39,987 nucleotides of DNA, taken from Pyrinomonadaceae bacterium (GTDB taxonomy: Bacteria; Acidobacteriota; Blastocatellia; Pyrinomonadales; Pyrinomonadaceae). Location of the stretch: positions 1-39,987 of the forward strand of contig JAHCHG010000017.1 of assembly GCA_026129865.1 (NCBI GenBank). The letters run 5' to 3'. Below, one piece after another: positions 28,259 to 31,351 of this stretch. Positions within the stretch are counted from its first letter, which is position 1; each line of letters begins with the position of its first letter. The translations under genes and the position numbers were made by a program. The notes beneath the pieces were generated by a model, which had not been told where the DNA came from, did no database searches, and worked only from the letters and a program-made list of their open reading frames with translations.

Positions 28259-28362
28259 TTAGACTCGCTCGTTAAAGCTCAAACGGTTCTTGAAAGGGTC
28301 TAAAATTTCCATTTCAATCGTTCCAAAGCCCGAATCGCAAATTCCCGGTTTGTAATATTTAT
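28259..28362 (-). pseudogene. 3' fragment of split glyoxalase gene
   Basis: Read from the target duplication, this fragment encodes YYKPGICDSGFG, TIEMEILDPFKNRLSF and NERV before TAA at 28261-28259. It is the missing C-terminus of the glyoxalase at 31084-31351, including the DPFKNRLSF motif typical of bleomycin-resistance/glyoxalase proteins. The two parts join in frame when one copy of the 9-bp duplication is kept, giving 120 residues. The insertion at 28363-31083 separates them. Confidence 0.9.
28354..28362. repeat. Target site duplication, left copy
   Basis: AATATTTAT directly abuts the left inverted end of the insertion. An identical copy abuts the right end at 31084-31092. Only one copy is needed to rebuild the glyoxalase frame, so the second was made by insertion. 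Confidence 0.9.
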
Positions 28363-28386
28363 GGCTTTGCACCTAAATCCTGATTT
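28363..28386. repeat. Left terminal inverted repeat
   Basis: The sequence begins GGCTTTGCAC and continues with TAAA after one mismatch; it matches the right end at 19 of 24 positions. Just inside, CTAAAT (28373-28378) and ATTTAG (28391-28396) form an inverted pair, followed by GTTC/GAAC at 28396-28411. Confidence 0.85.
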
Positions 28387-28418
28387 GAACATTTAGTTCT
28401 TAAAGTTGAACATAAAGG

Positions 28419-30602
28419 CTAGACATAAAATGTCGAATCATTAAAAAGGTTTTTCATTTCATCTCTGGCTTGCGCTCGCAAGTTTATTTTTTGCTTAATA
28501 TCTTTTGAGATTTTTTCGCGCATTTCAACGTGTTTTGGAATAGGTATAACGACTTCGCTCAAACGGTCGCCGATTGTGGAAAGCGTTGCTTGCACGAATG
28601 TTTTTTCATCAATTTGTTTCCTGACAATCGGAATATGCAAAAGATAGAGCAACAGATACGGGTCAAGTTGTTCTTTGTCTAAAGACCGAATAATTAAAAA
28701 ATGGCTTTGGACAAGCATTTTAAGATCGTATTTTGTTAGCAGAAAAGTTTCGCCGATTCGGTATGTGCCGTCTTTAACAAACAAAATGTCGCCTTCGCGT
28801 AATTTTTGTTTGTCTTTGTATTTTAAATAGGTTAATACGCTCACATTTTGAACGGCATAATTTCTGGTTTCCCATGCGCCGACATCGGAGGTTCTAAGAA
28901 ACGGAATTTTCTCATAAATGTCATATTCTTGACTGCCAACGGTCGTGCCTGCGCCTTTAACAGATAGAAGTTTTTCGGTAGTTAATTGTCTGATAGTTTT
29001 TAGCTCAAACTTACCGGATTGTTCCATCTTTTCTAACTCTTTAGATGTTTCGGGGTCGTAATATCGCGGGATTAAAATATCATTTTTCAAGGATTGCTCA
29101 TACAAAGTAAATCCGAGCCGATCATAATCTTTAATTACTCTGCTTGGGTAACTTTTGTAAATCTCCGAAACCTTTGAAAATTCTTCTTCAATCGTTTTAA
29201 TCTCGCCGCCGTCAATATAGGTTTCATTACCGCGTGGGTCGTGTCCGCATTTTTCTACGACGCTCATCATAATCGGATAATTCTTTTGTTTGGTCTTTCC
29301 CCACTTTTTAAGAATTAAAACGCTTGTTTTTGTATGCGTGTGGGGCATAAACGTATTGTGAGAGCAATCAATAACTGCAATGATTTCCGCTTTGTCTTTT
29401 ATCCATTGCCGAATATAACCGTCAGTCGGGTTTCCGAAAATACCATCAGGTAAAACAATAGCCATTCTTCCGCCGTCCTCAAGCAATTTAAGACATAGCT
29501 CAATAAACAGAATTTGCGGTTCGGTTTCTTTCGTCTTACAAGTTTTTACCCAAACATCATTTTCTTTATCACGTTTCCATTTATACCCTAAATCATACTG
29601 CTTTAAAATGTGCTTATGCTTGACTTTAATTTTACTTCCGAACGGCGGATTCGATAAAATCACATCGTATTTTTTGAGTTTTTGTCCGTTTGTGGTCAAA
29701 GTTGATCTAGCCGCATCTTCCCATTCGTCGGGGCTTTTCAAGCTGTCCGCTTTTACAATATTGCTTCTTCCATCGCCAATAATTGACATATAAGCCTTGC
29801 AAATTTTAACGAGATCAATTTCTTTATCAATACCGAAAAAGTTTCTTTGCGCGGTTTCTTTTTTATGTCTTTCCAGATGTTCGCCTTTATATTTCGGGCT
29901 GTTATCCATTATTTCCCAGATATGTTCTAAGGCGTAAATCAAAAATCCGCCGCTTCCGCAAGCAGGGTCTAAAATTTTCTCGTCAGGTTGTGGATTGACG
30001 ATTTCAACCGCCATTTTAACGACAGGGCGTGGCGTGAAAAACTCGCCTTTTTCACCTGCAAATTGTCTTTCGGCAAAAATTTCAAAAGCGTCGCCGACAA
30101 CATCTTTATCTGTTTTGGTAAGACTATATTTCTCTAATTCGCCGACAATATAAACAATAGATTTCGGGTCTAAAACAATTTCTTCGTGGGTTTCAAATAA
30201 ACCGTCATTAGAAAAATAATGTCTGACTTGTTTCCAAAGTTCTACGATATTGGCTTTTACTTGTTCGGGTTTGTCATCGAAACCAATCTTAAATTTCGGC
30301 GGCTTATCTCTGTCATAAAGTTCATCGAAAATCTTACAAAAAAGGAGCCTCACCATCTCACTTCCGAGTTTTTCTTTTCTTGAGATATTCGTATTTGAGT
30401 AAAGCGTGTAAAAAATCCGTCTAAAAATCGGTTTGAGGTTTTTAACAGGTTTCAGGCTATCTTTGGTAATTCGCCCTATATCTTCAAAACTTTCGCCGTT
30501 GCTTGGAATTTGAAAAATGTAATCTTGTTTTAATTCACCTGTTTTGGGATTTCGATAAATGTATTCAATTTCCGCGCCGTTTGTCCAAATCCCCAAAGGC
30601 AA
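28419..30602 (-). CDS. N6-adenine methyltransferase with half-specificity domain
   Basis: The 727-residue frame, read from a TTG, encodes a HsdM-like methyltransferase with LDPACGSGGF (211-220) and NPPF (318-321), preceded by a helical region (FRRIFYTLYSNTNISRKEKL). Residues about 500-727 form a single HsdS-type target-recognition domain with a C-terminal helix. In families of this kind the nuclease domain is fused in front. Here it lies in another frame (30530-30946). A missing base near 30600-30612 would join them as SYMSATCCPLGIWTNG. Methylation could persist if translation begins at this TTG; otherwise the gene is broken. Confidence 0.85.
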   Translation of the reverse strand: MPLGIWTNGAEIEYIYRNPKTGELKQDYIFQIPSNGESFEDIGRITKDSLKPVKNLKPIFRRIFYTLYSNTNISRKEKLGSEMVRLLFCKIFDELYDRDKPPKFKIGFDDKPEQVKANIVELWKQVRHYFSNDGLFETHEEIVLDPKSIVYIVGELEKYSLTKTDKDVVGDAFEIFAERQFAGEKGEFFTPRPVVKMAVEIVNPQPDEKILDPACGSGGFLIYALEHIWEIMDNSPKYKGEHLERHKKETAQRNFFGIDKEIDLVKICKAYMSIIGDGRSNIVKADSLKSPDEWEDAARSTLTTNGQKLKKYDVILSNPPFGSKIKVKHKHILKQYDLGYKWKRDKENDVWVKTCKTKETEPQILFIELCLKLLEDGGRMAIVLPDGIFGNPTDGYIRQWIKDKAEIIAVIDCSHNTFMPHTHTKTSVLILKKWGKTKQKNYPIMMSVVEKCGHDPRGNETYIDGGEIKTIEEEFSKVSEIYKSYPSRVIKDYDRLGFTLYEQSLKNDILIPRYYDPETSKELEKMEQSGKFELKTIRQLTTEKLLSVKGAGTTVGSQEYDIYEKIPFLRTSDVGAWETRNYAVQNVSVLTYLKYKDKQKLREGDILFVKDGTYRIGETFLLTKYDLKMLVQSHFLIIRSLDKEQLDPYLLLYLLHIPIVRKQIDEKTFVQATLSTIGDRLSEVVIPIPKHVEMREKISKDIKQKINLRAQARDEMKNLFNDSTFYV

Positions 30603-30946
30603 CAGGTGGCGGACATATAACTCATTAGTTGCCGGATACCGTCTTTTTTGTTAGGTCGCTTGGTTTCTACAATGCCGAGAATGTCATTGCTTTGATCGCG
30701 CTTCGTTGAATTAGTAGTTTTGTAAATTACAATATCCGCCGCTTCATTTTTATTTTTTTTACTACTTGCTTCACCCCGTTGAATCGGGACTTCAATATCT
30801 ATTTGATCGTAAGAATAACCGTAGTTTTCGTGTAGAATGACTTCATATTCCTGTCTAACATTTTCTTCCGGTTTTCGAATATCAACGGGTTTTCCCGTTG
30901 CTTTGTCAAGAATATAACCGTCTTTTAATGTAAGTGTAACATCCAT
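30530..30946 (-). pseudogene. N-terminal HsdR_N-like nuclease domain, frameshifted
   Basis: From the ATG at 30946, preceded by AGGAT, the first about 113 residues resemble the N-terminal nuclease domain of type I R subunits. They include EENVRQEYEVILHENYGYS, ADIVIYKT with Asp71, and GIVETKRPNK with Glu94-Thr-Lys96, the PD-(D/E)XK set. The ending CCLWGFGQTARKLNT is a frameshifted reading of what should be PLGIWTNG. The domain therefore probably lost its link to the methyltransferase. Confidence 0.82.
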
Positions 30947-31042
30947 TGGCAATATCCTAACATTTTGTGCCTAACCCGCACAAACTGCCTAATTAAAGCC
31001 TGAATTCCGCAAAAAGATTTGAACACAAAGTGTTTAAGGTTC

Positions 31043-31076
31043 CACATAAAGTCTGGGGAAAACTAGACTTTATGTG
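31043..31076. repeat. Subterminal hairpin at right end of the element
   Basis: CACATAAAGTCT (31043-31054) and AGACTTTATGTG (31065-31076) form a perfect 12-bp stem with a 10-base loop, overlapping the right terminal repeat. A related, looser ACATAAAG/CTAGAC arrangement occurs near the left end at 28411-28433. It may be a recognition or protection structure for transposition. Confidence 0.75.
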
Positions 31077-31083
31077 CAAAGCC
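31060..31083. repeat. Right terminal inverted repeat
   Basis: This end finishes in GTGCAAAGCC, the exact inverse of the left GGCTTTGCAC, and is directly followed by the duplication AATATTTAT at 31084-31092. Confidence 0.85.
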
Positions 31084-31351
31084 AATATTTATAATCCTTT
31101 GCGGCGAGCCGCGCGTAATATTCGCGCAGACCGTTCATCTCAAGATAAATGGCGGCGCAGGGCGTGGCGTCGCCGCTGTGTTCGCTCAGATGGAGAATGA
31201 AATTGCCGAGCCTGACGCCCATATAAAGCGGCATATTCTCGGCAAATCGATGCTCGAACTCCAATTCGAATTCGAGAAAATCCAGATAAAATTCTCTTGC
31301 CCGAACCTCGTCAAAGATGCGAAATATCGGCGTTATCTGAGTAAAGTTCAT
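31084..31351 (-). pseudogene. 5' fragment of split glyoxalase gene
   Basis: From ATG 31351 the frame encodes MNFTQITPIFRIFDEVRARE, FYLDFLEFELEFEHRFAEN, PLYMGVRLGNFILHLSEHSG and DATPCAAIYLEMNGLREYYA, a bleomycin-resistance/glyoxalase-superfamily protein. It then enters the insertion after KDYKY and stops in WLCT. The missing C-terminus is at 28259-28362. The gene sits 24 bp after an SRPBCC gene in the same direction, probably one operon before the break. Confidence 0.9.

Follow-up and report, generated by a model that had tools for sequence, protein, structure and literature searches.

Several known systems resemble the locus described here. Mobile insertion cassettes (MICs, e.g. MIC231) and transporter insertion sequences (tIS) possess ends like those of an insertion sequence (IS) and a passenger gene but no transposase, and are mobilised by a cognate transposase (PMC3129680; tIS also in PMC7986276), and methyltransferase passengers are known (PMC11891212). 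Restriction-modification (R-M) genes have been reported on IS and transposons (PMC4176335, PMC3031569), and Furuta et al. (2010) described R-M units with imperfect inverted repeats and a short target duplication but no transposase (via PMC3874152). Herein, we describe a transposon-like unit of 2,721 bp (28363-31083) that carries an R-M gene and interrupts a glyoxalase gene on contig JAHCHG010000017.1 of a Pyrinomonadaceae bacterium; the window denotes the whole 39,987-nt stretch analysed. With its R-M gene, imperfect inverted repeats, short duplication and lack of a transposase, the unit corresponds to the definition of Furuta et al., and transposase-less R-M units with transposon-like ends have already been published. 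The novel finding is the matching transposase family: in contrast to the units of Furuta et al. as summarised there, autonomous elements with the corresponding ends, together with their transposase, have been identified for the window unit. We consider it highly probable that the unit is a transposase-less, cargo-bearing member of a family of DDE-transposase elements and likely entered the glyoxalase gene through the action of such an enzyme in trans, because its ends, 9-bp duplication and end arrays are shared with autonomous transposons. R-M genes pass between distant microbes, and a number of them reside in transposon-ended units without a visible mover; the likely mover can now be named, and naming a candidate transposase makes the movement of naked R-M units directly testable.

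The unit is bounded by terminal inverted ends of the GGCTTTGCAC type, GGCTTTGCACCTAAATCCTGATTT on the left (28363-28386, forward strand) and GGCTTTGCACATAAAGTCTAGTTT on the right (31060-31083, reverse strand), which match perfectly over the first 10 bp and at 19 of 24 positions overall, and exact copies of the 9-mer AATATTTAT lie directly outside them at 28354-28362 and 31084-31092. The only frames of at least 80 amino acids (aa) within the unit are the two of the R-M gene, none encoding a transposase, and neither Rfam families nor tRNA genes were found in the window. The interrupted gene lies on the reverse strand, with its 5' part (Glyoxalase_7) at 31093-31351 and its 3' part, one copy of the 9-mer included, at 28259-28362; both parts were assigned by the joined frame and a protein search, and the 5' part also by a domain match. 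Deletion of the unit and one 9-mer copy restores an open glyoxalase frame of 120 codons. A search of this joined protein against 5.8 billion sequences revealed an uninterrupted metagenome homologue (P0124), 94% identical over 100% of the length, with no difference across the junction; the six homologues that followed were 83-69% identical, one labelled Pyrinomonadaceae and one Acidobacteria. The restored frame and the intact homologue therefore mark the unit as an insertion. Evidence for the empty site comes from the protein search, because the glyoxalase half gave, apart from itself, only 24-32% matches in 5 of 60 genomes. An earlier reading of this DNA from its letters (hereafter the original prediction) had noted the inverted ends, the exact duplication, the absence of a transposase from the interior and the restorable 120-codon frame, all of which were confirmed, and the uninterrupted glyoxalase that it proposed to look for exists at the protein level.

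The same kind of ends was observed in relatives of the host. In the source genome, the 24-bp end pattern (at most 3 mismatches) matched solely at the two ends of the unit, and the control pattern did not match. In 119 genomes of the host family, an 18-bp end pattern with at most one mismatch was found in 50, with repeated variants in G510 (10 copies), G456 (7) and G512 (5). A shorter exact pattern and its control gave 69 and 4 matches in G510, 45 and 12 in G455, 30 and 0 in G512, 17 and 0 in G520, and 4 and 5 in the source genome. The nine matches of the 18-bp pattern in viral contigs did not pair into an element. Among 20 fetched stretches with the end pattern, three contained long elements: L073 (1,627 bp), with a 458-aa transposase of DDE_Tnp_1 plus SWIM type, no cargo and no duplication seen; L074 (5,066 bp, duplication CTAGATTTT), with a transposase, PDC-M24A/B and other genes; and L075 (4,978 bp, duplication GAACCATAG), with a transposase, an N6 methyltransferase and a weak Methylase_S match, thus combining same-kind ends, transposase and methyltransferase in one element.

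A profile built from these three transposases matched 23 of the 119 family genomes at E <= 1e-40 and, at E <= 1e-100, 6 of the 396 genomes sampled from the phylum, two of the six belonging to the host family. Transposase loci (32) were fetched and examined for inverted ends with an 8-10-bp duplication, whatever the end sequence, and in 17 of them GGCTTTG-type ends and an exact 9-bp duplication surround the transposase; the variants are AGCTTTG, in L125 and for one of the L147 ends, and GGCTTTA, for one of the L134 ends. Four loci came from other families; the 9-bp duplication is exact in L156 and L158 and matches at 8 of 9 positions in L157, whose ends are alike at 18 of 20, and L155 gave no convincing end pair. 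In total, 22 elements were delimited (the 17, L075, L073 and three from other families), 20 with an exact 9-bp duplication; L073, L074 and L075 were first found via the window's end pattern and the remaining elements via the transposase. Full-length elements with same-kind ends and a transposase, for which the original prediction had suggested a search, are thus present in related genomes with 9-bp duplications, supporting its proposal of a non-autonomous unit mobilised in trans.

Chance repeats as the source of the ends and duplication were rejected by two controls. First, [GA]GCTTTG ends were scanned in the fetched loci, the six loci holding the window itself being excluded, and 23 rows with an exact 9-bp duplication were obtained (three of them cross-combinations in L131), all with ends alike at 14 or more of 20 positions, compared with 3 rows at a shift of +1 and none at nine other shifts. 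Second, with a matrix of 44 ends that excluded the window, the right and left ends of the unit ranked first and second (27.4 and 22.3 bits) and the next place scored 11.7 bits; the 44 training ends themselves score 12.3-28.0 bits, with a median of 23.5. The unit shares with the family the GGCTTTG ends with AAA at positions 13-15, the 9-bp target duplication and a subterminal array of the end motif. It has no transposase of its own, as autonomous members do, and is classed solely as a non-autonomous member.

In the terminal 130 bp of most elements, the element's own variant of the end motif is repeated in both orientations. In the window, such repeats lie at 28387-28440 on the left (e.g. TTGAACATAAAG) and at 30953-31059 on the right, the latter including an inverted copy that had been described as a hairpin. 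In 18 of the 20 elements considered (the window and 19 others, with L133 and L141 left out), the commonest subterminal 13-mer occurred more often than in any of 10 dinucleotide shuffles, the window having 5 copies against 3. The repeated motifs are probably transposase-binding sites. The original prediction had interpreted the hairpins at both ends as recognition structures; however, since they are inverted neighbours within arrays common to most members, binding sites in duplex DNA are likelier. Recognition of hairpins of the IS200/IS605 type is ruled out by the 9-bp duplication and the DDE transposase of the relatives.

These arrays also bear on the possibility that the R-M gene was trapped between two short family units resembling miniature inverted-repeat transposable elements (MITEs), so that the unit travelled as a composite of the two and at no time had a transposase. 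Short empty units with these ends are indeed present in relatives, with 9-bp duplications in L086 (141 bp), L090 (165 bp), L060 (98 bp) and L131 (99 bp) and a 10-bp duplication in L080 (149 bp), and the L131 element sits between two such units of about 99 bp. However, the window ends show the subterminal layout of transposase-bearing elements and are not a pair of complete short units, each flanked by outer ends. We therefore regard a MITE composite as improbable.

The family transposase carries the YREK signature, Y-(2)-R-(3)-E-(6)-K, in all 18 transposase frames examined from the 22 elements, and a SWIM-like CxC...CxH pattern in 15 of the 18. The top NCBIfam match, transpos_IS5_2, remained below its 140-bit cut-off in the three transposases scanned (135.4, 114.6 and 130.7 bits). 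IS903 combines ends of the form GGCTTTGTT... with 9 bp. YREK is a hallmark of IS4, whose terminal bases are CA or CT as outlined in PMC2266710; the relatives share YREK, but their ends begin with GG or AG. The transposase is filed in neither IS5 nor IS4. At least 7,392 proteins match the L073 transposase at E <= 1e-40 among 7,998 candidates scored, and solved structures gave no match to the profile at E <= 0.1.

The unit thus possesses what distinguishes a MIC or tIS in the sources cited above, namely the ends of a known autonomous element, a passenger gene and no transposase. It differs from them in its SWIM plus YREK DDE transposase family, its subterminal motif arrays and its R-M cargo, and also in that the cognate transposase expected in the same genome of an active MIC was not found. 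Several observations weigh against our interpretation. The profile detected no family transposase in the source genome (assembly 95.8% complete) at E <= 0.001, and likewise none at E <= 1e-40, the threshold at which 23 of the 119 family genomes matched. No element was found in which these ends enclose both the same R-M gene and a transposase. No bounded element was delimited at 15 of the 32 transposase loci, some of which are broken or cut by contig ends. The reversed control pattern matched the source genome four times compared with two for the 18-bp end pattern, and single pattern matches therefore mean little. Finally, the end matrix depends in part on the window, because L073, L074 and L075 were found by its pattern. 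Nevertheless, the ends match those of a transposase-bearing family, and the unit therefore likely owes its movement to a borrowed enzyme. Most simply, it would be a MIC-like derivative whose transposition relied on a transposase from another element, either in a previous host or at a time when a partner was still present. In the mechanism we propose, the transposase would bind the repeated end motifs, join the ends and insert the unit with a 9-bp staggered cut; the unit may have lost its transposase or never had one, and may have entered this genome from outside. Because no related transposase was found in the source genome, the unit looks stranded and present-day movement there is unlikely.

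The cargo of the unit comprises two overlapping frames on the reverse strand, assigned by domain scan: a 140-aa frame with an HSDR_N_2 nuclease-like domain (30530-30952) and a 727-aa frame with N6_Mtase and a C-terminal specificity-like part (28419-30602). The frame switches at 30530-30602, a stretch shared by the nuclease-like frame and the beginning of the methyltransferase frame. In contrast, the L004 and L005 relatives each consist of one continuous protein (844 and 840 aa), and most close relatives, among the matches listed, are of about that length, suggesting that the gene is frame-broken or that the assembly contains an error at one place. In this assembly the gene is frame-broken, and restriction activity is therefore doubtful. 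The original prediction of an R-M gene as sole cargo accordingly held as to content, only R-M frames being present, but the gene is split over two overlapping frames. At E <= 1e-60, the source genome was the only one of the 119 family genomes with this gene, a distribution as expected for recent arrival. The best non-self match in 60 relatives' genomes was 33% identical over residues 53-537 (E 1.5e-64), with short stretches reaching 52%. Plasmid relatives (20 records) were all below 60% identity, viral contigs yielded no locus, and in a Patescibacteria sample one of 379 genomes, already known, matched at E <= 1e-100. The best solved-structure match for the L004 protein was RM.BsaXI. The listed protein matches include names of Woesearchaeota, Pacearchaeota, a Thermoplasmata and a Halobacteria archaeon; since archaeal names are attached to relatives P0016, P0021, P0042 and P0058 (57-73% identical), this type of gene crosses domain boundaries. 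Closer R-M relatives, P0005 and P0006, stand at 84% and 83%.

The two close relatives detected in named genomes, from Candidatus Levybacteria (L004) and Roizmanbacteria (L005), are 74% identical to the window protein, and both are the cargo of IS1595 transposons in Candidate Phyla bacteria (L004:3560-7247 and L005:3561-7141). At both loci an IS1595 transposase (PF12762) faces the R-M gene, the L005 copy being frame-broken and the L004 copy also matching NF033547 (198 bits, cut-off 75). The pair is bounded by inverted ends of the GGCATATATACC / GGTACTTATCCC-like type and by exact 8-bp duplications, GTAAAATG around 3,688 bp in one case and ATAATAGA around 3,581 bp in the other. As in the window, a single R-M gene is the cargo of a small transposon, and this likeness, together with the 74% identity, might suggest that the unit is an IS1595-type transposon that lost its transposase. 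However, the window has no IS1595 transposase, its GGCTTTG ends and end arrays are those of the other family, and its duplication is 9 bp instead of 8 bp. The difference in the ends largely refutes an IS1595 origin, which we consider very unlikely. Because the closest R-M genes detected in named genomes ride complete IS1595 transposons, this type of R-M gene has used two unrelated vehicles. A movement by the R-M gene itself, through restriction-driven insertion or recombination with incidental ends and duplication, might also be proposed, as PMC3874152 reports R-M units that move without linkage to a known element, some of which have imperfect inverted repeats and a short duplication. Nevertheless, the ends of the window unit match those of transposase-encoding elements, which leaves little for an incidental origin, and we give self-movement scarcely any credence.

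Cargo was also observed in the related elements. A PADLOC tally covered 43 cargo frames (best 25 of 144 families), with Pfam run singly on 30 of the 43, three libraries on L073-L075 and PADLOC on 10 further frames. R-M or methyltransferase cargo was present in 4 of the 22 elements: L125 (N6_N4_Mtase plus Mrr_cat within one protein), L134 (1,007 aa, N6_Mtase/MmeI-like), L075 and L157 (MTase_II). Compared with the R-M gene of the window, the L075 cargo is 26% identical over 319 aa and that of L134 21% over 228, and the L125 and L157 cargo gave no match at E <= 0.001. Other predicted defence or toxin-antitoxin cargo includes PDC-M24A/B (L074), Fic (L135) and HicB (L147); in the tally, SoFic occurs in one frame, PDC-M19B in one frame that is assigned to no element, and RmrA in three, taken to include the L126 and L141 frames, whose cargo is HTH plus Peptidase_M78. 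Five L156/L158 frames and four frames of a tandem array had no PADLOC match, and the remaining elements had cargo without family assignment or, in L073, no cargo. In total, predicted defence or toxin-antitoxin cargo was present in 9 of the 22 elements; enrichment in defence genes is not claimed.

Tn7 uses a machinery of several proteins and produces a 5-bp duplication, and Mutator-like elements have a SWIM finger and a 9-bp duplication. Each element of the GGCTTTG family has one DDE_Tnp_1 transposase and is mostly 2-8 kb long, unlike the Tn7-like transposons, with which the family shares predicted defence systems among its cargo (diverse in Tn7-like transposons according to PMC8649781). Mutator-like elements and Pack-MULEs of eukaryotes tend to take up host genes, as noted in PMC6446971; the likeness to them is at most one of similar working, the transposase domain here being DDE_Tnp_1. 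Among the titles and abstract beginnings listed, which did not extend to ISfinder or subscription papers, none described a SWIM-bearing bacterial transposon family with defence cargo. We tentatively suggest, as a possibility we would not yet call probable, that an undescribed SWIM/YREK family, defined by GGCTTTG ends, 9-bp duplications and lineage-specific subterminal arrays, is a standing vehicle of small defence systems in the phylum and assembles defence islands by stacking at one 9-bp site, its transposase-less offshoots being the "self-mobile" R-M units for which a mover has been missing. The delimited elements suggest compact transposons with interchangeable cargo, including several predicted defence genes, that can be stacked at one site, and stacking would be one concrete route of defence-island growth.

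Tandem arrangements have been observed at two loci. In G520:C66:7899-61096 (L126, L159, L128 and L127), five tandem units of 2.5, 7.9, 32.4, 5.4 and 5.0 kb have GAACCATAG at their junctions, and one unit carries a methyltransferase. The exact 9-mer lies directly at both ends of four units, and the right copy of the first unit is one base off; the insertions seem to reuse the same 9 bp, and the 32.4-kb unit is a putative single transposon. In L131:7571-11283, two empty units of 99 bp flank a 3,478-bp element; TGTCCTAAA occurs at every junction, in one instance one base off. In the left flanks of L131 and L154, GTCCGATAAC lies directly upstream of the 9-bp duplication and is perhaps a preferred target. 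In addition, G455 contains eleven pairs of GGCTTTGCACAAAAA ends in inverted orientation, separated by 166-173 bp, which represent a candidate MITE-like family.

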